Source of the DNA: Leuctra nigra
Taxonomy: Eukaryota; Arthropoda; Insecta; Plecoptera; Leuctridae
NCBI GenBank assembly: GCA_934045905.1
Contig: OW203764.1
Location: forward strand, 31,661,629-31,725,628
Reading direction: 5' to 3'
DNA: 64,000 nucleotides
Positions within the stretch are counted from its first letter, which is position 1. Every line of letters begins with the position of its first letter. The notes beneath the pieces are model-generated. The model searched no databases. It was not told the DNA's origin and worked only from the letters and a program-made list of their open reading frames with translations. The translations under genes were made by a program, and so were the position numbers. Shown here piece by piece: positions 8,683 to 53,152 of the stretch.

Positions 8683-9015
8683 TCACACACTCGACACGGG
8701 TTTCTCTGTCCTCGTCTTCGGCGTCTTCTTCTTGTGCAAGTCGATCTGGATCTGCTCCAGCGACTTGCGATGCGTCTCCGGCTGGAAGAGGATGACGTAG
8801 ATGGTGCCGAGTGTCGAAGTGGCGCCGTAGAAGTAGAAGATGGCCTCCGTGCTGTTGAAGATGCCGACGAGGAGAGGGTAGAGCTTGACAGTCGCGAAGC
8901 TGAAGAGGTACATGTTGCACGTGGTGATGCCAACTGCCACGCCCTTGATGTTCAGAGGGTAGATCTCGCCCAGGATGGACCACGGCACGGTGCGGAAGCC
9001 GATCATGCTGAATAT
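8683..9015 (-). CDS. Transporter terminal exon 5
   Basis: Acceptor TTGTAG; starts IFSMIGFRTVPWSILGEIYP, covers the last helices and ends with a basic C-tail KKKTPKTRTEKPVSSV and a TGA. The GxxxxPW and GEIYP motifs are the classic last-third sugar-transporter signature. A possible AATAAA lies about 330 bp downstream on the minus strand (8348-8353), inside fold-back sequence. Confidence 0.9.
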   Translation of the reverse strand: MFSMIGFRTVPWSILGEIYPLNIKGVAVGITTCNMYLFSFATVKLYPLLVGIFNSTEAIFYFYGATSTLGTIYVILFQPETHRKSLEQIQIDLHKKKTPKTRTEKPVSSV

Positions 9016-12000
9016 CTACAAGCAATCATGATTAGATTTTTTAACGGCGCGTCAACGACGAGGTTATAGGTCAGATACTCGGACTCGCAAGAGTTGTATG
9101 GCAACCCAACCTGCTGATTAAGAATGCGTCCCGATAGCTTAATGGTTAAAGCATAGGGCCGGTAACCCGAAGGATCTGGGTTCGATTCCCAGTCGGGGTG
9201 CGCGTTTTTATTTCGCAGGTTACCTCCAAAACACCATCCCTAAGTGAGAGATTCACTAAATTTTCCATCATTATCAGACGAGGTTATATTGCGCACATTA
9301 TTTTTATATTTAATTTTGTTGAGCATAATTGGAGGACATGGGGAGGGGTCGACCTAACGGGCCCGATCCGGGGGAGTCCAGCACTGGTGGGAAGGCCAGG
9401 CCGGAATGGGGACGGACCGGGGGGTGTGAGGATTCGGGCCGGCGGAACCCGATTACAGGGGGATCACCATCTCGAGGGGGAAGGCCGACCCGAGGGGACC
9501 GCAAATCCAAGAGAGGGCATGGTTAGGTCGACCCTGGCTGCTCTTTGTTCTGGGCCTCACCACTGACCTGTCCGGCATGGGAAGCCCTTACACATGAGCA
9601 TATGCTCGCCGGCCTAGCTACCACAAACCCCACCACCGCGCTAAGGTGGCTGTCGTCGGGGGGGGGGGGGGGGGGGGGGGAGACAGTCATGATGTCAGAC
9701 ATATTCAGAAGGGAGGGAAAACACATTACGCTTTTAATACTAGGAAAAACGCTCAGTGTACCGCGTTGATGAGCGAGCACCAGTACGTGCAAATTCTCGA
9801 ACCGGAATTGCGTACACAACGTACAGAAAACATATACATCCATATTGAATTGAAATATGAAACATAAAAGTATCTGCTTTTCATTGAAACGTAAAAATTG
9901 CATCAAACTCTCTGGTACAAAGTAAATCAGATTCAGTTGACAGTTGCAGTGGAAAAACATTCATTTCGATACTTCATTTCTGACAGATATATAAAAAATT
10001 TCAATAAGTGCATACGATACATTCTTGACTGATTGGGATGAACATTTTTAAAATAAGAGACAATGTTGGTCTTAATGACTATGCAAAATATAAGTTTGAT
10101 CAGATTTCTCGAAGACCATTTTTATTTTTCAACCTATACGGAAATATTTATTTTATCAATGAACCAATGAACGGATTTCAAAAAAAGTATGGTCTGCAAA
10201 CAGAAAAGGTGGTCTTTACATGTATGCAAAATTTCAGATCGATCGGTGAAAGGGTGCGACCTGTGAATCGGTTAGTAGCAGAAAAAAAAGTCCGTGCTAA
10301 AAGAGCCAAAAGGAGTCGCTCGCTCAATAATCGGTGCTCTCAGTCAACTAGTTTACTCACCACTAGCAGTGTGAGCGCTGTGAGCGGGAACCAACTGGAC
10401 ATCCACTTGTACTGCATGTTCAGTCCCAGACCGATCATACACATGGACATGCCAGCGCCTCCTGTGATGCCCATTGGACGCCGTCCGCATCTGAAACATT
10501 CAGCAGTTGAGGCAACATCCACTTGTACTGCATGTTCAGTCCCAGACCTATCATACACATGGACATGCCAGCGCCTCCTGTGATGCCCATAGGACGCCGT
10601 CCACATCTGAAACATTCAGCAGTTGAGGCAACATCCACTTGTACTTCATGTTCAGTCCCAGACCGATCATACACATGGACATGCCAGCGCCTCCTGTGAT
10701 GCCCATTGGACGCCGTCCGCATCTGAAACATTCAGCAGTTGAGGCAACATCCACTTGTACTGCATGTTCAGTCCCAGACCTATCATACACATGGACATGC
10801 CAGCGCCTCCTGTGATGCCCATTGGACGCCGTCCGCATCTGAAACATTCAGCAGTTGAGGCAACATCCACTTGTACTGCATGTTCAGTCCCAGACCGATC
10901 ATACACATGGACATGCCAGCGCCCCCTGTGATGCCCATTGGACGCCGTCCACATCTGAAACATTCAGCAGTTGAGGTAAAACGCAAGAAATGTCAAGGCT
11001 TAAACATCGTTTTGGTCAAGAGTCTGATATTGATGGCATCAATGCAACGACAGTGTTTAAAAGACAATTACTTCCGGAAACCTTAGTTACCATTGGGATT
11101 GAAAATTAAAATGCTTGTGTCGTTGCCTGACATCGTTCAGGAAACGACCTCCAGGTAGAGCTACCAGGTTGCACTGCCCTCTAGAAAGAAGCTCACCTCG
11201 TGAGCACGACGCTGACGATCGCGCCGGAGACGAACTGCACGAGTCCGAGCAGAATGGACGCCAAGTACGGATCCACCTTCACGCCCGCCTTCAGCAACAG
11301 GTCGACCGAGTAGTACGTGATCACGATGTATCCGGAGATTTGTTGAAACAGGAACAAGCCGTTCGTAATCAACAGCGGCTTCATCGCCTCCCATTGGCAC
11401 AGAGCGTGCAGTGTGACGCGCGCCGACGCGAAGTAGTCCCTGGCGCAGTGATTCTTCTTCTCCTTCACTTCAAAGTCGTTGTTCTTCTCCGCTGACGCGA
11501 AGTAGTCCCTGGCGCAGTGATTCTCCTTCTCCTTCACTTCAAGGTCGTTGTTCTTCTCCGCTGACGCGAAGTAGTCCTTGGCGCAGTGATTCTCCTTCTC
11601 CTTCACTTCAAGGTCGTTGTTCTTCTCCACCGACGCGAAGTAGTCCCTGGCGCAGTGATTCTCCTTCTCCTTCACTTCAAAGTCGTTGTTCTTCTCCACC
11701 GACGCGAAGTAGTCCCTGGCGCAGTGATTCTCCTTCTCCTTCACTTCAAAGTCGTTGTTCTTCTCCACCGACGCGAAGTAGTCCCTGGCGCAGTGATTCT
11801 CCTTCTCCTTCACTTCAAGGTCGTTGTTCTTCTCCACCGACGCGAAGTAGTCCCTGGCGCAGTGATTCTCCTTCTCCTTCACTTCAAGGTCGTTGTTCTT
11901 CTCCACCGACGCGAAGTAGTCCTTGGCGCAGTGATTCTCCTTCTCCTTCACTTCAAGGTAGTTGTTCTTCTCCACCGACGCGAAGTAGTCCTTGGCGCAG

Positions 12001-15000
12001 TGATTCTCCTTCTCCTTCACTTCAAGGTCGTTGTTCTTCTCCACCGACGCGAAGTAGTCCCTGGCGCAGTGATTCTCCTTCTCCTTCACTTCAAGGTCGT
12101 TGTTCTTCTCCACCGACGCGAAGTAGTCCCTGGCGCAGTGATTCTCCTTCTCCTTCACTTCAAGGTCGTTGTTCTTCTCCACCGACGCGAAGTAGTCCCT
12201 GGCGCAGTGATTCTCCTTCTCCTTCACTTCAAGGTCGTTGTTCTTCTCCACCGACGCGAAGTAGTCCCTGGCGCAGTGATTCTCCTTCTCCTTCACTTCA
12301 AGGTCGTTGTTCTTCTCCACCGACGCGAAGTAGTCCCTGGCGCAGTGATTCTCCTTCTCCTTCACTTCAAGGTCGTTGTTCTTCTCCACCGACGCGAAGT
12401 AGTCCCTGGCGCAGTGATTCTCCTTCTCCTTCACTTCAAGGTCGTTGTTCTTCTCCACCGACGCGAAGTAGTCCCTGGCGCAGTGATTCTCCTTCTCCTT
12501 CACTTCAAGGTCGTTGTTCTTCTCCACCGACGCGAAGTAGTCCCTGGCGCAGTGATTCTCCTTCTCCTTCACTTCAAGGTCGTTGTTCTTCTCCACCGAC
12601 GCGAAGTAGTCCCTGGCGCAGTGATTCTCCTTCTCCTTCACTTCAAGGTCGTTGTTCTTCTCCACCGACGCGAAGTAGTCCCTGGCGCAGTGATTCTCCT
12701 TCTCCTTCACTTCAAGGTCGTTGTTCTTCTCCACCGACGCGAAGTAGTCCCTGGCGCAGTGATTCTCCTTCTCCTTCACTTCAAGGTCGTTGTTCTTCTC
12801 CGCCGACGCGAAGTAGTCCCTGGCGCAGTGATTCTCCTTCTCCTTCACTTCAAGGTCGTTGTTCTTCTCCACCGACGCGAAGTAGTCCCTGGCGCAGTGA
12901 TTCTTCTTCTCCTTCACGTCAAGGTCGTTGTTCTTCTCCGCCGACGCGAAGTAGTCCCTGGCGCAGTGATTCTCCTTCTCCTTCACTTCAAGGTCGTTGT
13001 TCTTCTCCACTGACGCGAAGTAGTCCTTGGCGCAGTGATTCTCCTTCTCCTTCACTTCAAGGTAGTTGTTCTTCTCCACCGACGCGAAGTAGTCCCTGGC
13101 GCAGTGATTCTTCTTCTCCTTCACGTCAAGGTCGTTGTTCTTCTCCACCGACGCGAAGTAGTCCCTGGCGCAGTGATTCTCCTTCTCCTTCACTTCAAAG
13201 TAGTTGTTCTTCTCCACCGACGCGAAGTAGTCCCTGGCGCAGTGATTCTCCTTCTCCTTCACTTCAAGGTCGTTGTTCTTCTCCACCGACGCGAAGTAGT
13301 CCCTGGCGCAGTGATTCTCCTTCTCCTTCACTTCAAAGTAGTTGTTCTTCTCCGCTGACGCGAAGTAGTCCCTGGCGCAGTGATTCTCCTTCTCCTTCAC
13401 TTCAAGGTCGTTGTTCTTCTCCACTGACGCGAAGTAGTCCTTGGCGCAGTGATTCTCCTTCTCCTTCACTTCAAGGTAGTTGTTCTTCTCCACCGACGCG
13501 AAGTAGTCCCTGGCGCAGTGATTCTCCTTCTCCTTCACTTCAAGGTCGTTGTTCTTCTCCACCGACGCGAAGTAGTCCCTGGCGCAGTGATTCTCCTTCT
13601 CCTTCACTTCAAGGTCGTTGTTCTTCTCCACCGACGCGAAGTAGTCCCTGGCGCAGTGATTCTTCTTCTCCTTCACGTCAAGGTCGTTGTTCTTCTCCAC
13701 TGACGCGAAGTAGTCCCTGGCGCAGTGATTCTCCTTCTCCTTCACTTCAAGGTCGTTGTTCTTCTCCGCTGACGCGAAGTAGTCCCTGGCGCAGTGATTC
13801 TCCTTCTCCTTCACTTCAAGGTCGTTGTTCTTCTCCACCGACGCGAAGTAGTCCCTGGCGCAGTGATTCTCCTTCTCCTTCACTTCAAAGTCGTTGTTCT
13901 TCTCCACCGACGCGAAGTAGTCCCTGGCGCAGTGATTCTCCTTCTCCTTCACTTCAAGGTCGTTGTTCTTCTCCACTGACGCGAAGTAGTCCCTGGCGCA
14001 GTGATTCTCCTTCTCCTTCACTTCAAGGTCGTTGTTCTTCTCCACCGACGCGAAGTAGTCCCTGGCGCAGTGATTCTCCTTCTCCTTCACTTCAAGGTCG
14101 TTGTTCTTCTCCACCGACGCGAAGTAGTCCCTGGCGCAGTGATTCTCCTTCTCCTTCACTTCAAGGTAGTTGTTCTTCTCCACCGACGCGAAGTAGTCCC
14201 TGGCGCAGTGATTCTCCTTCTCCTTCACTTCAAGGTCGTTGTTCTTCTCCGCCGACGACGACGTGTACAGGATCATCTCCACGCCATCCACAGCGCCGCG
14301 CTCCTGTTCTGCCTTCTCCAACGCCTTCCTCTTGACCTCATGCGCCTCGACCATCGCGTCGTACTCCTGCTTGACCTTGAGCGGCGTCACTTTGCCGCTC
14401 TTCACTCCGCGGAGTGTCCTCAGCGACTCCAGCGCCATCTCGGGCTTGTTCTTCGCGATCAGCCAGAGCGGACTTTCCGGCAGGAACTGATAGGTGAGGA
14501 AGAGAGAGAGCAGTGGGAGACAACCGCAGATCGCTGCTATGATCTGCCAGCTGCTCCTGAACAGAGACCCCAGGACGTAGACGATGAGGATGCCGAGGGT
14601 GATGCTGATGGAGGTCCACGACATCAACATGCTCCTGATCTTGGTGTCGGAGGCGATCTCGCCGAGGTAAACGGTTGCGGGGATGCTGGCCATGCCGCCG
14701 GTGAGTCCGCAGAAGACGCGACCCAAGTAGAGCTGCGCGAGGTTGTCACTGGTGACCGTGGCCAGCAGTGTCCAGCCCAGCAGGCATGGCAGGTTGAGCA
14801 GCAGCAGGGTGGCTTTGCGGCCGAAGTGGTCGGAGAGAGGACCGCCCAGCAGGCAGCCGATAGGGGAGATGATGGTAGACAGGCTCGCTGGAACAAGTTA
14901 CTTGTTTGTACTGGGCTGTGCGTGATCATCCACCAACAGGGTTAGAACACTGAAAATAATCTTGGAGTAAACATTTAGATTTGAGCAAACACAAACAAAG

Positions 15001-18000
15001 ATGAAAGGATAAATAAAAATGTCAAACAACTCAAAAAACAAAATAATTTTAAAATAAATAAATTGCTCTTAAATCGCTATAAATAAATAAAGGTCGAATC
15101 ATCGATTTTCAAAAACACGATTCGAAAAATTAAGAATCGCCATACCCAAATCAATATAAGAAACACACTCAAATGAAACAAATCACATTGAATTAAAAAA
15201 TTAACAAAAACTACAAAAAATTAAGTGATAAGTGTTGTCTTATTTTTCGTTACTAGGAAAACGCTCTGAGTAACGCGTTGATGAGCGAGCACGGATACAC
15301 GCAACACCTCGAACCGAAATTATGTCTATCGAAAATGTCATTAAAAGCCAATAATTCTTGAATTTCGTCACAGACTTGTATAAATATCTCCAAAATTTCC
15401 AAAAATATTGGTCCCAATAACCTTGCTAAGTTTTAAATTGATCGATTAAACCTTTGATTGAACGGTTCCTTGTTAAGTTTCAAAAATCACATGATATCCT
15501 TCAAACAATATACCTGGGACCACTCATATGATATGATATTACTGTGTACACAATATCAGATCAATCTGTTAAACGGTCATTATTAGTTTCATATCGTTTG
15601 AAACTTTCTGCTCTAACTACCTTGCCTTGAACTGAAGATTCGAAGTCGCCGTGAATTTGACAGCCAACACACAAAATGTCCCTAAAATTACAAAAACTTT
15701 TGAAAATAACTACAAATTAGACTGAAAATTGGCAAAAATACCTTAAATGTTGCTACCAATTACCATGCGAAGTTTTTAGTTGGTCGGTCAATCGGCAATA
15801 CCCGCTGCACGAGAGAGGGTATTGCGTTGATTGTTTGAGTATCTCCTTGCAGCAGTCTGGTCGGGGGTCTCTTTGCTCCTTGATGCTTTATTATTAACGA
15901 CATTTTGTTTCAACCTTTTAGATTTAGCTTCGTCAGTTTCTTGATCTTCAATTTCACGCAGACGCTTTTTCGCCTTTATGGCTTTCATTCTAGCAGAAGT
16001 CTTTCTATTTTTCGGCATGTTTAAATAGGGATAAGATAGGTAATGAAAAAGTAAGAAGTAGAGTACCTACCTAATTAAAGTACAATAATATTTGTGTGAT
16101 CAATGTTTGAAATGCACGAAATGTGTGCTCAAAGACGTAATGTATTCAATGTCGTAATGTTACGAAATGAATCTTGAACAAAACTTCGCAAATATGAAAA
16201 TAAAGTAAACACCTTTCAACTAATAAGCGAAAGGAATCAAAGTTCCACACAAAAAAACGGATCAGGTAAAATAGTAACTACCTAGTTTAGAAACGGAATG
16301 AATCCAACGTTCCACAATTAAAATAAGACAACGTAATGTTTTGAACTGAATGAATCAAAACTTTCAAAAAAAAATAGCAACCTTCAAGGAAATGTCAGGC
16401 TAGACAGAAGCTCAGAAACGGAATAAATCCAACGTTTCCAAGAAGAAAATAATTTGAAATAATCAATCCCCTGGACAAAAACGGTAGATACCTAATATCT
16501 ATGCTTTAAAAGCGATTCAATTTTACTAATACCTTCACAAAGTACACCAAATTGCCAAAATTATCAACGAAAAGAAGCAAAATGCAGGAGAGATTTGGAA
16601 TGACGTGTGAACGCTAGAAGAGAACAAACGCCACTCAATGATATTATTGAAATGTGAGCTTATGTTTCTAATCCCTCCTGGATGCAAAATCAGCCAAGTA
16701 GAAACACGGGAGGCACGGCCATCAGAACTATACGAATTGACGAAAAGACAATCAAGGTCCTTAAAAACTCGAAATGATTTGTTGGAAACTATGATCCAAA
16801 TTGAATTATTCAAATTTGATCAACTCTTCTTCTTCTTCTTCTTCTACCCGCAAAGATTGGGCTAAAAGCCCGTTCCGTCCTCAAGGTGCAGCCCATCTTT
16901 TCCTTGGCCGGCCAATGTCGCGCCTGCCCTTCGGATCATAGTGAAGGGCCCATTTGGGAATTCTCTTATTCGACATCCTTTCTACATGGTCGGCCCATCT
17001 TCTCCTGTACTGTGATATATTCTTATTGATTTCCTTCATTCCCAATTCGGCCCTTATATCCTCATTCCTGATTTTATCTAACAAACAACACCCTTTTACC
17101 GATCTCAAAAAGCGCATCTCAGAAGCCTGAATATCTTTCTTGTCTCTCTCACGCAATGTCCAGGCTTCACTTCCATACAGCAATGTGGGAACTGCCATCA
17201 CATTATAGAATTTTAATTGTGTCTCCTTTCGCGATTTATTTTTTAGACTTCTTCTTATAGTCCCACAAATATGCTGAAATTTGTGTATTTTGCTCTGAAT
17301 ATCATTGTCACGTAGATAAGTTATATCATATCCAAGATATTTAAAATGCGACACTTGTTCCAGGGTATTGTTGTCAATTACTATTTTTGAGCGAACGGGG
17401 AATTTTCCTTTGAATGCAATAATCTTGGTTTTAGCAAGTGAAATTTTAAGGTCATATGTTTTACAAATACTATTTAAATTGAACAGGGACTTCTGTAATT
17501 GATCTTCAGTTCGATGTATGACTACTTGATCATCGGCAAAGAGGAGTGTATTAAAACCTTCATGAGCATTGAGATATACATCAGGTTTACATAGTTTCTT
17601 CCATTCTCGCAGAACATCGTCAATGTATATATTAAATAGGCTAGGTGATAAACAGCACCCTTGTCGTACTCCTCTATTGATCTCAAGTTTACGTAAACCA
17701 CCTCCTCCTATATCTATTGAAATGTGCGTCTCGTAGTACAATGCCTTAATGGCCTCTGTTAAATGTTTGGGGTAGCCACGCTTATCTAAAATCTTCCACA
17801 TCGTCTCACGGTTTACTCTGTCAAAAGCCTTTTCATAATCAATGAAGGCCATGTGCGTCTCAAGATTAAATTCAACCCGTTTTTGAATGACTTGTCTTAA
17901 TGTAAAAATGTCATCCATACACGATCTTCCTCTCCTGAATCCACTCTGCTCTTCCAAAAGTAAAACATCAGATATATTCATTAATCTTCTATTCAATATT

Positions 18001-21000
18001 TTTGCATAAATTTTGTAACCTGTATTTAATAAACTTATGCCACGATAATTTTCACAACAGCTTCTATTCCCTTTTTTAAATAAGGATATAATTTTTGCTT
18101 CCCTCCACTTCTTGGGTATGTTGTAACTTATCCAACATGTATTTAGAAAATTTAAAAACCGCTCCTTGAAAGATATTCCACCACATTTTAGAAGCTCCAC
18201 ATTAATTCCATCTAAACCAGGCGCTTTTCTGTTCTTTGACGCCATTAATGCTTCCTGTAGCTCTTCAAATGTAATTCTATCTACATCTGCGTTACATTGA
18301 GGGACGGTCTTTGAGGATGTCGCATTAGAATCATACCATAACTTTTTGTAATGCTCAACCCATTGGTCACCTTTAATAATGTTCAGACAAGCAGTATCTC
18401 TTTCTGTACTGTTTAGATGTTTCATAATTTTATACGCAACTGTTTGCCTGCCATGAACATCGTCTTCTACATTGCTGATGAATTTGTCCCAAGATTCGCG
18501 GTGAGCTGCTCGAACTATATCCTTTGCTTTTCTTCTTTTTGCGTTATAATTGTCTTTTGCTTGAACATTTCTTAACTGAAGATAATTGAGGTAAGCTTCT
18601 TGCTTTTCCTTGACAGCAATTTCTATATCTTCGTTCCAAATCCTCAAACCTTTCCTTTTTCTTACTTTCTTCCTTTTTCCCAGAGCTTCGCTAGCTGCTG
18701 TATTTAAAATTCGCTCCAAATTACTCCATTCCATGTCTACATCAGTGACTTGCGAATACTTCTCCATCTGTGAATTAATCCTCTTCTCATATAGGTCTCG
18801 AATACTTTCCTCCTGCAATAGGTATACTTTATATACTTCTTCACACATACCTTTCAGTTTGCTCGTTGAATTTTTATTCCACTTTGTTAAAAGAGATATT
18901 TTTGATACTACCAAATAATGATCGGAATAGATGTCACTTCCTCTAAAGACTGTAGTGTCTTTAACTTGGGATGCAAGTTTCTTATTCACGATTACATAAT
19001 CAATAATTGACTTTGTACCTCTAGCACTCCAAGTATATTTGTTGATATCTTTCTTACGGAAAAAGGTGTTTGTTATCTTGAGATTATTGAAAGAGGCAAA
19101 GTCACACAATTCTCTTCCATTATTGTTCAGATGGGCTTCACCGAAAGTTCCGACAACATTAGGAATGGGCTGATTTCCAACACGAGCGTTCAAATCTCCA
19201 GCTACTATGACATGATCATTTGAGAACTTATTCATCTGCTTCTGAAGCTCTTCGTAAAATTCTGCAGTGTCCTCTTTCTTACCTTCCTCCGGAGCATATA
19301 CACCAATTACTGTCAAGTACCCTCTTTCAATTTTCAGTCGCGTCAATATTATTCTATCATTTATAAATTCATAGCTTTGTATTCTAGTTTTCCACCTATT
19401 GTCTACTAATAATGCTACCCCACTACATGCTCTTCTGTTCTGTGGTACACCACTGTACAGCATGATGTAGTTGCGAAGATCTTTGGTTCCTTTTAACTTC
19501 AATTTTGTTTCAGTTATTACTGCCAAATTAATGTTTTTGTAATTAAGCTCCCTGTCCAATTCCTCTACTTTATTGTTTAGTCCACGCACATTCCATGTAC
19601 CAAACTTAATTGTTTCGTTAATACCATGTCGTTTATCCGTTTTCTTGCTTTGTCCGTTACCGTTAAATCCGCATATCCGAGGCTTATTTCCTTGAAGATT
19701 ATGAGTAAAGTAATTTCTACGTGGAGGGGTAACCAGCCCCTCGCACAACCCCCAAACTTGGAGGGCCAGGGTTTTCTGTCGGGGTTTTCCTTCCCTTAGC
19801 CAAAGTTGTTCCAGTTAGATGGCGCCGGAGGTTCGCCATGCACCCTCTTCCGTCTGCTACATGACGACCATCCATTGGCCGCCATGTACCCAGGGGTCAC
19901 GTCGTGGACGTGGAAGTAGGATTTGCTGGCAGGACTGACTCGCGACGCGAGCTTGCCTCATGGCAAAATCAGTGGGCATTAACTAGGTTTTGATGGGAAG
20001 TACCATTTTGGCATAGGTACAACCCCCTAGTACCCATATCCAGCATTTGACACCCAATAAACATACTCAATAAACATAAAAATATCTGCTTTTCACTAAA
20101 AAAGTGTACATACCATCAAAACACTCTTGTACCTAAAGCAAATCAGATTCAGTTGCATTGGAAAGACATTCATTTTCAATGTTTCATTTCTGACAGCTAT
20201 TAAAAATGTCAATAAGTGCATACTTTCTTGACAGATTCGGCTGAAAATTTGTAAAATAAGTGACATTGTTGGTCTTACTGACCATGCTAAATATGAGTTT
20301 GATCACATTTCTCGAAGACCATTTTCATTTTTTAGGCTATCAGGAGATACTTATTTTAACAATGAACCAATGGATGAATTTCAAAAAAAAATTGGGTCTG
20401 CAAACAGAGAAGGTTGTCTTTACATGTGTGCAAAATTTCAGGTCGATCGGTGAAACGGTGCGACTTCTATTGCTTCCTTTAGCATACAAAAAAAAAAAAA
20501 AAAAACAGAGGTCCGTGCTAAAAGAGCCAAATGGAGTCGCTCGCTTCGCTCACTCAATTATTTTTTTAAATATTTCACCCCCCCCCCCCCCACCCCAAGT
20601 GCCACGGCCGAAGAAGTCGATTATCTTTTTCCACCACATCCAGAGTCAAATATAATGTTTCCTCCCTGAAATCCCCAATGTTTGGCCTTCTCCCTATCGG
20701 ACCAACAGGCAATCTGTACCCGTGTAATGTTGACATGGCGATGAAGTATTGAACTCACCGAACCACGAGGCTTGGTCTGGAGTCAGGAAGATCTGATCCG
20801 TGTTGGTCTGATTGGTGAGTTGAGGCAGCGACACAGACGAGAAGCCGATCAGAAGACCCGTGGAGATCCCGCCAGTGATGGCGATCAGGCTGATCAGAAT
20901 CTGACAAGCAACAACTTTCCTTTAGATAGTGCTTGAGGGACACGAAATCATCTACAGTCAAATCCAGTACACAACATCCAGCTACGTAAGTCAAATCCAG

Positions 21001-24000: not shown

Positions 24001-24235
24001 AGTTCATTTTATAATCGTCCAAGATGGAAACTAAGTGCTGGGTAGGATATGGAATCACATCTGAAAGTGGCACGAGCAGAACCAAGGTTGTCAACTGTTA
24101 TATGGTGTTATCAGCAAGCACATGCTCTATTGATACCTGCTTGATGAAGACGGCATGTTTTTCCCATAGCGACGTCGCCTGTTCTTCCTGCTCCAGCGGC
24201 AGGAATGTCTCGTGTTCTGGAGCAGTAGTTGTCAT
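8683..24235 (-). CDS. Tret1-like MFS sugar transporter with giant repeat insertion (5 exons)
   Basis: Multi-pass plasma-membrane sugar (trehalose/hexose) transporter of the SLC2/Tret1 family. Coding exons, in gene order: 24235-24137, 20900-20759, 14887-11197, 10490-10361, 9015-8683. Phases close exactly (4395 nt, 1464 aa). Family signatures in order: LTPDQASWF before TM2, DHFGRK loop (GRK), GRVFCGLTGG, PESPLWL, QQISGY in TM7, CGRRP, GFRTVPWSILGEIYP, and a PETHRKS C-terminal motif (family PETKG). Without the repeat the protein would be about 521 aa, normal for the family. Residues 294-1236 are 41 copies of a 23-aa charged unit in the cytoplasmic loop between TM6 and TM7. The start ATG at 24235 opens a short cytoplasmic tail running straight into TM1 coding sequence. 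The substrate is inferred from family; which sugar cannot be read. Confidence 0.88.
9128..9685 (+). repeat. tRNA-derived SINE-like repeat with GC-rich body
   Basis: Head 9128-9201 looks like a tRNA: acceptor-like arms GTCCCGA/TCGGGGT, D-arm TAGCTTAATGGTTAAAGCA, B box GGTTCGATTCC. The anticodon loop (CCGGTAA) lacks the invariant U33, so it is not a working tRNA. The GC-rich body (CCGGGGGAGTCCAGCACTGG and following) recurs at 34.78-34.95 kb. Ends in a 23-G run. Confidence 0.55.
9740..10327 (-). mobile_element. Helitron-like non-autonomous element, copy 1
   Basis: Plus-strand view: starts CTAGGAAAAACGCTC and ends TCGCTCGCTCAA. On the element strand it is flanked by A (5') and T (3') without a target duplication. 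Lies in transporter intron 4; its 5' end is 33 bp from the exon 4 donor. Confidence 0.75.
10361..10490 (-). CDS. Transporter exon 4 (functional copy)
   Basis: 130 bp between acceptor GTTTCAG and donor GTGAGT. Encodes CGRRPMGITGGAGMSMCMIG and the following helix up to FPLTALTLLV. It is the only one of five tandem copies of this exon's 5' part that keeps the 3' portion and a donor, so only its acceptor yields the family-consistent frame into exon 5. Confidence 0.87.
10401..10980 (-). repeat. 116-bp tandem repeat: five copies of acceptor plus 5' part of exon 4
   Basis: Copies begin at 10401, 10517, 10633, 10749 and 10865, differing by a few substitutions. Each contains a short pyrimidine tract, acceptor TTTCAG and about 90 bp of exon 4, but not the exon's 3' end or donor. 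Because 116 is not a multiple of 3, reading from one copy into the next shifts frame and soon meets a stop (after ALACPCV). The four upstream copies lie in intron 3. Confidence 0.96.
11197..14887 (-). CDS. Transporter exon 3 with 41-unit coding minisatellite
   Basis: 3691-bp exon between acceptor GTTCCAG and donor GTGAGC, open throughout. It encodes TM2-TM6 (GRK loop, GRVFCG and PESPLWL motifs), then the repeat array, then TM7-TM8 (QQISGY) ending SVVLT. A normal exon of this kind would be about 860 bp; the rest is tandem repeat. No unit carries a stop or frameshift, so coding selection or very recent expansion is likely. Confidence 0.9.
11422..14250 (-). repeat. 69-bp coding minisatellite, 41 copies
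   Basis: Units are exactly 69 bp (anchor block GTTCTTCTCC repeats from 11481 to 14241 at 69-bp steps, 41 occurrences), so the frame is kept. The minus-strand unit encodes EKNN(D/Y)(L/F)(E/D)VKEK(E/K) followed by NHCA(R/K)DYFAS(V/A). Only a few positions vary, and variants occur in recurring combinations (LD with KK; YL with AK), as expected from unequal exchange within the array. The reverse strand is also open and Leu-rich, but that is a by-product. Confidence 0.97.
15788..16018 (-). pseudogene. Remnant of a Helitron-type protein N-terminus
   Basis: 76 codons from a true ATG: very basic, with KAKKRLREIEDQETDEAKSK and SKETPDQTAARR, ending SRAAGIAD. The ETPxQxAxRR-type charged repeats resemble what precedes the Rep/helicase domains in insect Helitron proteins. 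No Rep or helicase domain follows: the frame runs into the family's 3' region and stops. Read as the fossil first part of the autonomous element's gene kept in a deletion derivative. Homology is from memory of the family style, not a search. Confidence 0.45.
16827..20064 (-). mobile_element. Complete-looking 3.24-kb non-LTR retrotransposon (RTE-like)
   Basis: Limits are set by comparison with the uninserted sister sequence at about 31.7 kb. The element is flanked by ACTC (16823-16826 and 20065-20068). Its 3' end (low coordinates) is a short GAA microsatellite rather than poly(A), and it has about 0.3 kb of 5' leader and a single ORF: the usual plan of RTE-clade elements. It lies inside a Helitron-like element, which lies in transporter intron 2. 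Confidence 0.88.
16881..19748 (-). CDS. Non-LTR retrotransposon endonuclease/reverse transcriptase ORF
   Basis: About 955 codons without a stop. N-terminal apurinic-type endonuclease: GTWNVRGLN, ITETKL, GDLNARVG, SDHYLV. Reverse transcriptase: KAPGLDGIN, WREAKIISLFKKGN, YRGISLLN, EEQSGFRRGRS, FIDYEKAFDRV, RQGCCLSPSLFNIYID, FADD active site (FADDQVV), then FKYLGY and a C-terminal RRRWADHVERMSNKR region. It resembles the RTE/'craniofacial development protein 2-like' type of insect elements. The frame opens after a TAA near 19817, but no ATG is found before the endonuclease domain; 19748 is a TTG, so the true start is unresolved. The domains look intact, so a recent insertion is likely. Confidence 0.9.
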   Translation of the reverse strand: MCEGLVTPPRRNYFTHNLQGNKPRICGFNGNGQSKKTDKRHGINETIKFGTWNVRGLNNKVEELDRELNYKNINLAVITETKLKLKGTKDLRNYIMLYSGVPQNRRACSGVALLVDNRWKTRIQSYEFINDRIILTRLKIERGYLTVIGVYAPEEGKKEDTAEFYEELQKQMNKFSNDHVIVAGDLNARVGNQPIPNVVGTFGEAHLNNNGRELCDFASFNNLKITNTFFRKKDINKYTWSARGTKSIIDYVIVNKKLASQVKDTTVFRGSDIYSDHYLVVSKISLLTKWNKNSTSKLKGMCEEVYKVYLLQEESIRDLYEKRINSQMEKYSQVTDVDMEWSNLERILNTAASEALGKRKKVRKRKGLRIWNEDIEIAVKEKQEAYLNYLQLRNVQAKDNYNAKRRKAKDIVRAAHRESWDKFISNVEDDVHGRQTVAYKIMKHLNSTERDTACLNIIKGDQWVEHYKKLWYDSNATSSKTVPQCNADVDRITFEELQEALMASKNRKAPGLDGINVELLKCGGISFKERFLNFLNTCWISYNIPKKWREAKIISLFKKGNRSCCENYRGISLLNTGYKIYAKILNRRLMNISDVLLLEEQSGFRRGRSCMDDIFTLRQVIQKRVEFNLETHMAFIDYEKAFDRVNRETMWKILDKRGYPKHLTEAIKALYYETHISIDIGGGGLRKLEINRGVRQGCCLSPSLFNIYIDDVLREWKKLCKPDVYLNAHEGFNTLLFADDQVVIHRTEDQLQKSLFNLNSICKTYDLKISLAKTKIIAFKGKFPVRSKIVIDNNTLEQVSHFKYLGYDITYLRDNDIQSKIHKFQHICGTIRRSLKNKSRKETQLKFYNVMAVPTLLYGSEAWTLRERDKKDIQASEMRFLRSVKGCCLLDKIRNEDIRAELGMKEINKNISQYRRRWADHVERMSNKRIPKWALHYDPKGRRDIGRPRKRWAAP
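20759..20900 (-). CDS. Transporter exon 2 (TM1 and first extracellular loop)
   Basis: 142 bp between acceptor TTGTCAG and donor GTGAGT. Encodes ILISLIAITGGISTGLLIGF (TM1) and an extracellular loop ending LTPDQASWF. Splits a codon after its first base; with exon 3 this gives Ala. Confidence 0.88.
21271..22040. mobile_element. TIR element with subterminal GACGGAACTTTCG array
   Basis: Flanked by TATCA (21266-21270 and 22041-22045), termini GGTGGTA and TACCGCC. Inside each end are several copies of CGCCGACGGAACTTTCG in inverted orientation. In transporter intron 1. No coding content. Confidence 0.7.
22607..23461 (-). mobile_element. Helitron-like element, copy in transporter intron 1
   Basis: CTAGGAAAACGCTCTGAG end at 22607 and GACGCTCGCTCAA end at 23461; flanks again A/T on the element strand. 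Interior shares the GTTGGTC...ACCATGCAAA segments of the family. Confidence 0.8.
24137..24235 (-). CDS. Transporter exon 1 (N-terminal tail)
   Basis: 33 codons starting ATG ACA ACT ACT; ends in phase 0 at donor GTATCA. Encodes an acidic, Glu-rich cytoplasmic N-terminus ending KHAVFIKQ, which joins the ILISLIAITGG of exon 2. Confidence 0.82.
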
Positions 24236-40200: not shown

Positions 40201-43200
40201 AATCGTGCTTCTAGCCCTCACTCTCAGTATATTATTGCCGTGTTTTAAGGAATTGTGGTTCGAGGTGTCGCACGTATCCGTGCTCGCTTATCAACGCGTT
40301 ACACAGAGCGTTTTCCTAGTATTAAAAAAATATCTTAGGTTATAGAGTTCTTGCAGAGGCGCCGGAAGTGTACTTTGTTAGGGGGGGGCACTCCTGGTTG
40401 CCAAAGTAGCTGAAAATTCGGGAAAATACGTTTGCATTTGAGTATACAACGGGGGGTCTTGGGGCAGGGCCCTCCAGCCAGTACCGTGCGGGTCCTAGCC
40501 GCACAGGTCCGAAATACTTTTGATTTCAGAAGTTCATTTGGACTATTTTCTATGTGTTTTGGCCTATAATTTTCGGCGATTTGCTCCCCTAAAATAAGAA
40601 TTTACTGAAAATGGGAACTTTAATTATAAAGAATATACGATCCGCATATTTTACATTCATTACAAAATATTATGGGGGGGGGGGGGGGGGGCACATGCCC
40701 CCACTACCCCCTTTCCCTCTTCCGGCGCCCCTGAGTTTCTGACGTCATTATCGTCAAACAATATTTTCAAATGTGAAAATTATAGTTTGAAAAGATTGGA
40801 AAGTATCTATCTATAAGTAGTTTGAATTTCTATTTAGATTTTAGACCATTCTAGAAATTATCTGGATGGCCCTCTTAAAAATGTAGATATCTATTCCTGT
40901 TTATATACATTGTTGTGAAATACTTATGCAACTGCATGTGTTTTAAAAATGACAGAGCGACCCAGATCATTTCAAACTGCCTTTTAGCAAAGTGTTGGCT
41001 CTCTCTCTGAGTTAATCAAGCTTCTATTACCTGACCAATGCATGAAGCCGGATTGTCCCAGCTTTGTGGCGGATAGTTCCAATATCTCCTTGATCCTCTT
41101 TCCCTGCAGCTCCACCACGTCGAATGTGTTGTTATATGGTTGCACGGCCAGCAGGTCTCCGTACGTGATCGCTGAATAACAAGCAATACATTACACTGAT
41201 GGCGGATAGTTCCAATATCTCCTTGATCCTCTTTCCCTGCAGCTCCACCACGTCGAATGTGTTGTTATATGGTTGCACGGCCAGCAGGTCTCCGTACGTG
41301 ATCGCTGAATAACAAGCAATACTAATTCAATCTGTTATAAATTATTACTTTGTATTTTCTAGTGACGTGTACGACTGGTTAATAAAAAAATCTTAAAATT
41401 TAATTTTCCAGATAATATTCGTGTTTTACAAATAGGAAATTTAGGAAACAACACAAAATTGATTCGGGAAAATCCACTATTCTTTTTAATCCTTATTTGT
41501 TGTTTAGTATTATTGAGTATATAGGTACATTTTTAGTTACTCACAATCATTCATACGAATCTAAGGAAATGTGATGATGTATTGACGGAAACAACCCCCA
41601 GTCTTAGGCTTGAAAGACGGGATGAAATGATAGTGAGTGTGAGAACTATTACCTCCCCCACGCAGCTTCTCGTCTATGGAGGCCTGGAAACTGCCTGCAT
41701 TTGACACGGCGATTGCTGCCAGAGTCCAGCTGGTTTTATCAGCTCGTTTCACCCACTGAAACACACAGTTATAATGATCACAACACATTCAGACATTCCT
41801 CATTCATTATTATAGGCATTGACACACATTATCCATGTTGCCAACTAGAGGGTCAGTGAGCAGGCGCGTAGACCCCCCCCCCCCCCCACTCGAGCAGGCT
41901 TGCCCCCCATTCACCACACAAAATTAATTTTAGTGTCCGAGAATAACGTTAAGATTGTTTAAATTCTAGAAAAAACGCCCTGCGGGGCAAAAATAGGGAG
42001 TTGTTTGTTGTAATTTGTGCATTCTATAATCACTGTTAAATGGTTTAAATTCTAAAAAAACACCCTGCGGAGCTAAATCTTGGGGACTTTGCACCCAGAC
42101 CCCCCTGGATGTCGCCCCCCCCCCCCCCTCCTCCCCGATGAAAGAAGTTTCTACGCGCCTGTAAGTGAGTCAGATCATGTCATGTAATAACATTAGATAA
42201 CAGCTCTTTGCCAGAGGTTAGGCAACACAACTGTCATCTATGCAATGCGGGTTGTTTCGAGTCTAGACTGCGAAGTAATGAACGTGGCTGTACCTCTACT
42301 TAATTTAATTTTTTATTACAATTTATTCATAAGAGGTAAGCTAAATTATGATGTCCGGCTACGCTAGACTATGGGACTTTTTTAAGATTTATTTTCATCT
42401 CACTATTTCAAGATAATTATTAATACCATAACACATGATTTTGTTTTTGTATTTGCATTTGTTATTGTTTGAGGTACATTTCAGGAAAATGTGAAAAGTT
42501 ATTTAACAAGAACTTGCGATGGAAGTAATACTTTAAAATATTCGCATGCCATTTTTGATGATTCTTATGGGTGACATTGACATGGCTAAAAAGTAAAAAC
42601 GAATAGTTATACAAACTACATTTGAATATTTTTAAGAATCACCTGGTACATGAATAATTAAATTCTACTCTAATGGTCGCACTACTTCTTCAAGTACTCT
42701 CTTCGTCCCATATAAGGAACTTGAGAGTCCTTCAAGATGGCGACGATAATGGTCTAATCGATTTGCCCGTGTACAAAGATTTGAAGAGACACCTTGTCAA
42801 ATCGTATGCCTTAGAAAGAGTGTGCACAATTTTTGCATAATCCTATAATATAATTCACCATTGTCACTAAATTAATATTAAAATGATAAGCATGTTCCTC
42901 GCGGTCTATCAGATTCTTAAGGTGGATTTCCATGCTCCGTCACCGTCCGTCACAGTCCGATGAAAACGACAGAATGCGATCACGTGACCCGTCTCGACCA
43001 ATCAGAGCCATCCCCAAAAATCTCGGACGGCGACGGATTGGTCGAGACGGGTCACGTGATCGCATTCTGTCGTTTTCGTCGGACGGTGACGGACGGTGAC
43101 GGAGCATGAAAATCCACCTTAACTCGTCAAAAATTGTGTACGTTACTTTTTTTTTTTGGGGGGGGGGTGGGGGGGAGATTTCCATGGTTTTATAGCCATA

Positions 43201-50800: not shown

Positions 50801-53152
50801 CACTAACTTTCCCTGGAAAAATAGATAGATCATTGCATTACAATGGAGGAAGAAGCTTGTAATAATTTAAATTATTTTACAGAATATTCAAAATTTCTGA
50901 AATCTAATATTTTAATCTAATATTTTACAATTCAGATACTACTTGAACATCTTTTTTTTTAGTTTTTGCAACCAGTTTGGTTTTCTAGATATCTATTCTA
51001 TAGGCAGTTTTTCAAAAATAGGTACCTAGCAAACAGAAATCTGGAAGATAACATTTCTGTGAAAGTAGAAACTAGAGCATCCCAAATAAATTCTGAATTG
51101 GTCTAACATTTATTCATATATAAATCCGAAGACATCTGAGGAGAATGTGTGAACTTACACATGGCTCTGGAGGCACAAAGTACGAGGCGCAATGAGGTTG
51201 TTCAGCGAGGCACAACAGAGAGCTGTGAGTCAACGCTGTGCCACGGCCCGAGTCTAACACAAACCGAGCCAGCTCGTAGGCCGAGTCGATGGAGAAGTCT
51301 GCCTTGGGAGGTCCTTGCGAGGCGAGACGCTTAGCCAGGCTGGATCAAAAGAATCCTTGGTCAACTTTACAAGTTGTAGGTATTAATTACATTAGTCAAG
51401 AGTTGAACGATTGTGCTACCTACATGTCGGGTTATAGCAGGTAAAGCAGGACGAAAGACTTGTTGGAAATTATTAAAATACCTAGTTATTATGAATAAGT
51501 GTGTGAACTATTCTGTGTACACACACTATAGCCACTTTCTGAACTACCATTTTGAAAAGTAAAAAAAATCTTAAATCTAAATCTAAAATCAGAATAAAAT
51601 AAATACATATTAATGAATAATATGGACCTTTTACCCGACCGATTGTTATAAATTTAATAGTACGGCTAGGTAACAAAATGTTGAATATATGTTCCTACTA
51701 AAATCTAAATATTAGGTAAGTACCTGAAGTATTTAAATATTTATCTAAATATTCTATGGAAATTTATTGAATGAATAATTTATTAGGTATTTAAAAAGAA
51801 ATAATAAGTACCAGGTACCTAGTACAAAATAAAATCCTTCATAAAACACAAGTATTTTAAGGAAAATGTAAAATATTTTTAAGATAAAAATCATAATAGA
51901 CCATTTTAAATATTATCTCGGTGGCTCTGCTTTCTAAGAAAAATCATATGCAGTTTGATTTCCAGACACCTTAGTCCCTGTTTCAACAATAGGTAAAACA
52001 GGGACTAAGGTGTCTGGAAATAATACTGTATATGATTTTTCTTAGAAAGCAGAGCCACCGACATAATATTTAAAATGGTCTATTGGTAGTGACCTGTTAA
52101 GAAGGGCCGTGGTGACAGCAAACCCAGAGCCCAGCATTGGATATCTGAAGTCCGACGCCAAGCTGAAGTGATGGATGATGGTCGAGTCAGCGTCCACAAC
52201 TCCGTAGCCGATCCACGCGTCCTGCAATAGAATCAGCCCATGATGCACGGCGACATGGACACCACGTTAACATGGAAACCACGGCCACATGGACACCACG
52301 GCAACATGGAAACCATGGCCACATGGACACCACGGCAACATGGAAACCATGGCCACATGGACACCACGGCAACAGAGCCGCTCGACATCGTACCTCCGTG
52401 CTGTCATGGCGACCCAGCAGGTCCATCAGCACGGGCAGGTTGATCCGTGTTCGATCCTCACAGAAGAAAATCCAGGAGCTGTTCGAGCCATGGAGGAGGC
52501 TCAAACTGGAACAGAAGAACTCTTGATATATACAATTATACAGCTCGTAATAGAATTACAAATTGGACGAAGCAGAATCAAATTGTTTAATGATGAATAG
52601 TAAAAAAATAAAACATAATATATGATTCTCACCTGTCTAAAATTGGTATAAAAGTCCAGGCTCCATGGTGGGGAAAATTCACTATTGTCGAGTGTATAAT
52701 GGGCATCAAACCATCCTGAAAAAATTGAATTTTTGGGTAGACCTATAATTTTCTTGTATTTTCCTAATATGGTGACAATTAGAAAATGTGATCACAGCAA
52801 GTAAATAAGTATGCTTTTTGCTTTCATCTACGTAGGTAGTTTCATGGGAAATGAATTGAAACTAGTACAGTTTTGCAAATTATCAGACTTATGTCCGTTG
52901 TTAGTGAGTTTTTACTGTTTTACCTCTCTTGACGCTTGTAGCAGCAGATGGTTGGTCAGCTTCTTGGTCAAGTCAGCGTGATGAGGTGCATCTTGCGTCA
53001 CCACGACGATGACCAGTTGATTGGCAGACACTGGAAGCACATAGAGAGTTTTACAATCACTTCGGCTCGCTTCCGATCTGTCGGTAGAAGATGTGAGTCT
53101 TACCTTTAGAAGCGCCATGAGAGTGTGCAGTCAGGTAGTAGATTATTAGCAT
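47697..53152 (-). CDS. B3GLCT: Beta-1,3-glucosyltransferase (B3GLCT/B3GALTL type), 10 coding exons
   Basis: ER-lumenal glycosyltransferase (GT31, fringe-like) that adds glucose to O-fucose on thrombospondin type-1 repeats. Coding exons in gene order: 53152-53104, 53030-52924, 52715-52633, 52505-52394, 52221-52094, 51339-51159, 50812-50677, 50048-49907, 48906-48642, 47837-47697; 1344 nt, 447 aa, all phases close. Seen: short signal peptide [26 protein letters not shown]; metal-binding DDD at 307-309 ([11 protein letters not shown]); [42 protein letters not shown]-terminal HQEL, a KDEL-type retrieval signal (human ends in REEL). Length is slightly short of the human protein (498 aa). It looks intact; several introns carry TEs. 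Divergent neighbour is SRP19. Confidence 0.93.
47955..48433. mobile_element. MITE with TTGGGCGAAC termini
   Basis: Left TTTGGGCGAACCTC, right GTTCGCCCAACCC, with GAACCGAACC/GGTTCGGTTC subterminal words; about 0.48 kb, in the last B3GLCT intron. Confidence 0.6.
48642..48906 (-). CDS. B3GLCT: B3GLCT exon 9
   Basis: 265 bp; encodes [38 protein letters not shown] and HSPQFHQ, the most conserved block of the enzyme. Confidence 0.94.
49110..49740 (+). pseudogene. 5'-truncated non-LTR retrotransposon fragment (RT C-terminus)
   Basis: The reading frame at about 49263-49655 encodes [20 protein letters not shown], a hydrophobic [19 protein letters not shown] segment and ends KKEECNI with TAA; this is the post-RT region of jockey/CR1-type elements. 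Upstream frames are broken ([14 protein letters not shown] remnants). An A-rich tail follows. Antisense within the B3GLCT intron between exons 9 and 8. Confidence 0.7.
49907..50048 (-). CDS. B3GLCT: B3GLCT exon 8 (DDD catalytic motif)
   Basis: 142 bp; encodes [14 protein letters not shown] and [14 protein letters not shown] is the metal/UDP-sugar binding motif of GT31 enzymes. Confidence 0.93.
50187..50406. mobile_element. Fold-back MITE (GGTACACTCGACAATT family), copy A
   Basis: Arms AGGTACACTCGACAATTCAT and complement; TAAAACGGTATTTGAA continues each arm. In a B3GLCT intron. Confidence 0.8.
50677..50812 (-). CDS. B3GLCT: B3GLCT exon 7
   Basis: 136 bp; encodes [18 protein letters not shown] and VKQTW, the fringe-family entry into the catalytic domain; donor GTAAAT. 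Confidence 0.92.
51159..51339 (-). CDS. B3GLCT: B3GLCT exon 6
   Basis: 181 bp; encodes [20 protein letters not shown] and [13 protein letters not shown] through [11 protein letters not shown]; donor GTAAGT. Confidence 0.9.
51895..52085. mobile_element. Fold-back MITE (AATAGACCA family) abutting a B3GLCT splice donor
   Basis: Arms AATAGACCATTTTAAATATT and complement, with GGCTCTGCTTTCTAAG inside. Right edge is 8 bp from the exon 5 donor. Confidence 0.85.
52094..52221 (-). CDS. B3GLCT: B3GLCT exon 5
   Basis: 128 bp; encodes [20 protein letters not shown] and [12 protein letters not shown]. The donor GTCACT is followed within 8 bp by a fold-back MITE. Confidence 0.9.
52240..52375. repeat. 34-bp minisatellite filling a B3GLCT intron
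   Basis: About 3.8 copies of a unit containing ACATGGACACCACGGCAAC and ATGGAAACCATGGCC, within the 172-bp intron 52222-52393. Confidence 0.9.
52394..52505 (-). CDS. B3GLCT: B3GLCT exon 4
   Basis: 112 bp; encodes [20 protein letters not shown] and a helix ending GRHDSTE. Donor GTACGA opens a 172-bp intron made largely of a 34-bp minisatellite. Confidence 0.9.
52633..52715 (-). CDS. B3GLCT: B3GLCT exon 3
   Basis: 83 bp; in phase it encodes a segment ending [12 protein letters not shown], corresponding to the HEGAWTILP stretch of the vertebrate enzyme. Acceptor TTTTCAG, donor GTGAGA. Confidence 0.85.
52924..53030 (-). CDS. B3GLCT: B3GLCT exon 2
   Basis: 107 bp; encodes [20 protein letters not shown], the first beta-strand region, ending LLLQASRE at donor GTAAAA. 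Confidence 0.85.
53104..53152 (-). CDS. B3GLCT: B3GLCT coding exon 1 (signal peptide)
   Basis: The exon starts at acceptor CTACGCAG (53170) and the ATG is 17 bp inside it; donor GTAAGA. Encodes [16 protein letters not shown], a compact signal peptide. Confidence 0.75.

Follow-up and report, generated by a model that had tools for sequence, protein, structure and literature searches.

A 41-unit coding minisatellite in the central loop of a stonefly sugar-transporter gene, and arrays at exon edges of the same genome

How can one exon of a membrane carrier gene take up 943 additional residues and stay in frame? The question is raised by a Tret1-like sugar-transporter gene of the stonefly Leuctra nigra, which lies in a stretch of 64,000 nucleotides (GenBank assembly GCA_934045905.1, contig OW203764.1, positions 31,661,629 to 31,725,628), hereafter the window. 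The loop between transmembrane helices (TM) 6 and 7 of its product is interrupted by a tandem array of 69-bp units. The answer that we consider probable is that a coding minisatellite has expanded in place within a selected sugar-transporter gene and is tolerated in a loop that is itself tolerant of length.

A preliminary description of this DNA had reported 41 in-frame 69-bp units without a stop inside the exon encoding the loop, and three approaches bear this out. Cut in frame, the array comprises exactly 41 head-to-tail units on the minus strand without a single indel or stop, its limits being 11421-14249 rather than 11422..14250 as originally given; Tandem Repeats Finder (TRF) returns a period of 69 with 41.1 copies and 97% matches (11423-14257); and a 28-bp unit probe, allowing up to three mismatches, finds 41 matches in the window compared with 0.00 by chance. 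The open reading frame (ORF) across the array spans 11193-14897. The units are close to identical: 62 of the 69 sites are invariant and seven vary, the 41 units represent 13 distinct DNA sequences, the mean pairwise difference is 1.66/69 (2.4%), and units 22-32 are all identical, a run of 11 (759 bp). When the whole array was searched as DNA against the insect's own genome (536,196,549 bases in 144 contigs, very common words skipped), the window array alone was matched. Nearly identical, arranged head to tail and read in an open frame, the units make the array a coding minisatellite, a class that includes the zinc-finger array of Prdm9. The two have in common near-identical units inside an exon, in frame and with a length that is a multiple of three; they differ in that the array described here resides in a cytoplasmic transporter loop and that its unit is without known function.

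An antisense frame of 972 amino acids (aa), rich in Ser, Pro and Arg, is also open across the array (11417-14335, plus strand). Long antisense frames over the array were taken as a by-product of the 69-bp unit; with regard to stops, 4/6 frames of the consensus unit behave like those of shuffled units, which commonly have 1-5 frames open.

The gene model comprises five exons with GT-AG borders and encodes a protein of 1464 aa, or of 544 aa with one unit (Table 1). Pfam Sugar_tr matches the product with an expectation value (E) of 1.6e-40 and 139.8 bits against a cut-off of 22.3, and in an alignment the motifs GRK, PESP, QQxSG, GRR and PET, which we take to be those of the sugar-porter family, are present in order; the initial assignment to a Tret1/SLC2-type transporter with an otherwise family-typical remainder holds on both counts. 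A simple hydropathy scan yields 10 peaks compared with the twelve membrane helices of the family. The closest relatives among the best 120 of 453 are polyneopteran Tret1-like proteins, with 42-45% identity over most of their length. Two of these, P0001 of Anabrus simplex and P0002 of Diploptera punctata (42% and 45% identity), resemble the window gene in their motifs but lack the repeat and have a loop in the usual range (79 aa in P0001). A phage tblastn search returned distant sugar porters only and was uninformative. The product is indeed predicted to be far larger than usual, albeit at 168.9 kDa with 41 units and 60.0 kDa with one, not at 165 and 57 kDa as first stated, and the 943-aa insert is acidic, with a charge of about -65 at pH 7.

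That the central loop is normally short, another point of the preliminary description, is confirmed by the relatives. Of 122 insect-type relatives, 77 had both of the motifs between which the TM6-TM7 span was measured; it is 61-79 aa (5-95%) and at most 84, the other 45 having missed one motif or fallen outside 320-800 aa. The span of the window gene is 1039 aa in full and 119 aa with one unit, and hence even the one-unit loop is about 40 aa above the usual length. Two Schistocerca gene models outside the 77 have spans of 221 and 293, and the loop can therefore be long without repeats. An exceptionally large TM6-TM7 loop is shared with the plant TMT/TST carriers, and although the 1039-aa span places the window carrier among long-loop carriers we do not claim membership of TMT/TST. 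According to passages of PMC4160088 the TMT loop, of about 320 aa, is regulated and phosphorylated and is a feature of a subgroup, whereas here the loop is filled by a tandem array of 943 aa that is apparently young and belongs to one paralogue out of three.

The two paralogues inform both the history of the array and the constraint on the carrier. Exon 3 is matched as a single 897-bp stretch (72%) in paralogue 1 (contig C10, 27.99 Mb) and as a single 906-bp stretch (62%) in paralogue 2 (C10, 16.63 Mb), and a loop segment of the latter (301 bp of L058) is likewise single; neither paralogue therefore contains an array in exon 3. Each exon 3 match includes one stop, which in paralogue 1 falls just past the exon end. 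Outside units 1-40, the window gene and paralogue 1 share 73.6% aa identity over 295 codons, with a synonymous rate (dS) of 0.74, a non-synonymous rate (dN) of 0.17 and a ratio of 0.23, which points to purifying selection on the carrier core, that is, on exon 3 outside the array. The units tell a different story. A comparison of dN and dS between units, which had been proposed as a check, gave no sign of purifying selection: six of the seven variants are non-synonymous and one is synonymous, compared with 5.1-5.4 and 1.2-1.7 expected without selection, and the chance of zero stops among seven variants is 0.68-0.80. Selection on the unit is therefore shown neither by its open frame nor by its conserved Cys and His; the variants fit an absence of selection, and the array appears to be young. 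The neutral copy-number expansion that had been offered as one option is supported.

A plausible course of events begins with the duplication of a 69-bp segment encoding part of the central loop between two copies of the 8-bp sequence CGTCGGCG, which is observed at both ends of the array. Growth to 41 copies would then have proceeded via slippage or unequal exchange with homogenisation, as suggested by the 11 successive units that do not differ and by the shuffling of the variants. It may have been tolerated because 69 = 3 x 23 and because the cytoplasmic loop tolerates length, the coding frame being free of stops. The outcome would be a 169-kDa carrier with an acidic insert that probably has little effect on transport, and at most on turnover or trafficking.

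Several observations weigh against this account. Only part of the unit aligns with a single stretch of the loop of paralogue 1, and with few identities, lending weak support to a native origin. The direct repeat sits in a TCG/GCG-rich stretch, where identity over 8 bp is not very improbable. With only seven variants, weak selection on the units is compatible with the data, and both neutrality and copy number are read, with due reserve, from one assembled haplotype. Lastly, AlphaFold2 produces a confident fold for the coding frame and not for the antisense frame.

This fold also speaks for a rival explanation, which we consider unlikely: that the repeat is a new functional domain, in the form of a long, acidic tether or solenoid on the cytoplasmic side to which regulators bind or by which the carrier is clustered. 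Ten units modelled without an alignment gave a beta-solenoid with a predicted template modelling score (pTM) of 0.87 and a mean predicted local distance difference test score (pLDDT) of 87.5 in the best model and 44.6 in the worst of five, as opposed to a pLDDT of 35.1 for the antisense frame. The antisense frame being disordered, a solenoid artefact is not automatic; however, its Ser/Pro-rich repeat is a poorly matched control, and AlphaFold2 is reported, in the abstract of PMC11795689, to predict beta-solenoids unrealistically for perfect repeats. Given this reported artefact the solenoid was not accepted as structural evidence, and the model would seem to deserve little weight. A domain would also accord with 41 units kept in frame in a gene whose core is apparently under purifying selection, and with the regulated loop that plant TMT carriers have at the equivalent position (passages of PMC4160088). 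On the other side stand the units themselves, with no sign of such selection, and the searches: Foldseek returned 85 PDB matches of the solenoid model at E <= 10, none of which reached E <= 0.001, and a protein search with the array region, weakened by its length and word settings, gave no match at E <= 0.001. Two Pfam matches of the repeat, Inhibitor_I48 (E 1.5e-9) and Mating_N (5e-7), were taken as chance, no single stretch having passed, and PDB 5cwf, a designed helical repeat (E 2e-4), was taken as compositional; it conflicts with the beta-solenoid model. The new repeat domain envisaged at the outset, with metal/Cys-mediated or coiled assembly, is thus not supported, profile and fold searches having provided no convincing relative. 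Its Cys and His are invariant, as had been noticed, but this carries little significance since 62/69 sites are; a metal- or Cys-mediated domain is rejected as an inference, the conservation of both residues following from the youth of the array.

The true array could instead be much shorter or longer than assembled, a prospect to which we assign a very low probability. Assembly is difficult across its 11 identical units, as it is across the exact duplication of 133 bp at 41 kb, and a single haplotype was seen; on the other hand, phased variants distinguish the units and their order is non-periodic, the genome has further arrays that vary widely in size and unit, and the contig is 45.7 Mb long with an array beyond short-read ordering, so that long reads were likely used. 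That the array is present in the DNA but absent from the protein, being spliced out or part of a silent gene, is similarly improbable: GT and AG dinucleotides do occur within the units, but the frame is open over all 41, the flanks form one exon as in both paralogues, and by eye (unscored) the unit is without a good donor or acceptor.

Arrays are not confined to the loop exon. The preliminary description had overlooked a second array at the acceptor of exon 4 and the recurrence of such arrays elsewhere in the genome. The exon 4 array repeats the acceptor TTTCAG and, by reading, a full exon is obtained only from the copy nearest the donor GTGAGT. Exon-edge minisatellites known as mirages have been described in amphioxus, where a splice acceptor or donor is arrayed together with some exon sequence; several genes per genome are affected, and the units measure 10-160 bp. 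The 116-bp array and other loci reported here are alike in this respect, and the former, as modelled, spans an exon-intron boundary as mirages do; the 69-bp array differs from them, lying wholly inside exon 3 and in frame. Copy numbers differ too, with up to 38 acceptor copies at one insect locus here compared with 3 and 6 units in the amphioxus BflGb6 haplotypes. Our literature searches found no report of exon-edge minisatellites in insects.

As a background, 20 stretches of 10 kb were sampled at 2-Mb steps from contigs C1 and C2, minisatellites being defined by a period of at least 25, at least 3 copies and at least 85% matches. Fourteen merged stretches (18 rows unmerged) at 8 of the 20 places cover 11,629 of 200,000 bp (5.8%), which makes the genome a minisatellite-rich one, and by reading 4/14 are on an exon edge. 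Gene-centred loci carry an exon-edge array in 4/31 cases, comprising two of nine other sugar-transporter loci, 2/16 carboxylesterase exons with overlapping arrays (ranks 5-20 of the match list) and 0/6 P450 exons (ranks 1-6). At one of the carboxylesterase loci (L041) the repeat series had been noticed before sampling and a longer flank was taken. At the start of exon 5 of paralogue 2, the match table lists five matches about 166 bp apart. Another sugar-transporter locus, L031, has a weak 74% array that is not on an exon edge.

Taken together, these arrays may reflect a pervasive process by which the edges and pieces of exons become minisatellites, an insect counterpart of the amphioxus case with arrays of larger size. 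Splicing would act as its filter at the edges, and the reading frame would do so within exons. The transporter array would then be a protein region of several hundred residues being born, and arrays elsewhere new introns. We regard this as an evenly balanced proposition, and the wider exon-repeat process as the more interesting part of our findings. None of 12 exon-edge periods is a multiple of three, a pattern spotted post hoc in a mixed sample; at exon edges surplus copies may stay in the intron, leaving the period length free. The empty P450 sample weighs against reading the transporter array as one case of a wider habit of this genome and indicates that the habit is uneven. If the proposition is true, one genome displays both fates of repeats seeded in exons: a membrane carrier nearly tripled in size by growth in frame, and arrays at exon edges concealed in introns. 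The origin of new protein regions and introns, along with the length capacity of the loop, would then become testable with long reads and RNA. Such arrays can also mislead gene modelling, domain searches and AlphaFold prediction.

Table 1. Coordinates of the array, its host gene and exon-edge arrays (window positions unless a locus or contig is named)
Feature	Position	Strand	Details
41 in-frame 69-bp units	11421..14249	-	23 aa each, consensus EKNNDLEVKEKENHCARDYFASV, TM6-TM7 loop
First copy of 8-bp direct repeat CGTCGGCG	14250..14257	-	Bounds array, 5' side in sense
Second copy of CGTCGGCG	11421..11428	-	End of unit 41
Exon 1 of Tret1-like gene, start ATG	24137..24235	-	Model
Exon 2, TM1 region	20759..20900	-	Gene model
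Exon 3, TM2 to TM8 region, array in TM6-TM7 loop	11197..14887	-	ORF, Pfam, gene model
Exon 4, functional copy, donor GTGAGT	10361..10490	-	Gene model
Exon 5, TM10-12 region, stop codon TGA 8683-8685	8683..9015	-	Gene model
116-bp x5 array, acceptor and 5' part of exon 4	10399..10976	-	TRF, matching; partial copies also matched
Exact 133-bp x1.9 duplication, acceptor and 5' exon part, 5'-nucleotidase-like gene	41067..41322	-	5_nucleotid_C E 5.6e-9
Exon-edge array	L016		zf-AD, E 9.2e-8, above cut-off
Exon-edge array	L004 8751-9503		GST_C, E 0.001, below cut-off
Exon-edge array	L004 5687-6428		No Pfam match
Exon-edge array	L005 63-843		No Pfam match
Sugar transporter	L027/L033 (C13:1305600-1310600)		38 acceptor copies, mostly 65-bp spacing, and 53-bp x6.3 donor array
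Sugar transporter	L030/L034		14 copies of 122 bp
Carboxylesterase	L041 (C10:15853000-15854500)		Exon start and acceptor, 142 bp x5.9
Carboxylesterase	L039		101 bp x3.7, read by eye only

Further features were observed in and near the window. A 977-aa open frame (16881-19814), which by eye resembles the endonuclease and reverse transcriptase of a non-LTR (long terminal repeat) element, lies in the intron that separates exon 2 from exon 3, and at 9660-9680, near a tRNA-Thr (9128-9201), a long run of G adjoins GC-rich sequence. At 52246-52374 there is a 34-bp x3.8 array, by reading within a short intron that has a coding exon on either side. A 145-bp satellite-like array of 45.6 copies (L003 962-7601) is located about 52-62 kb from the window.

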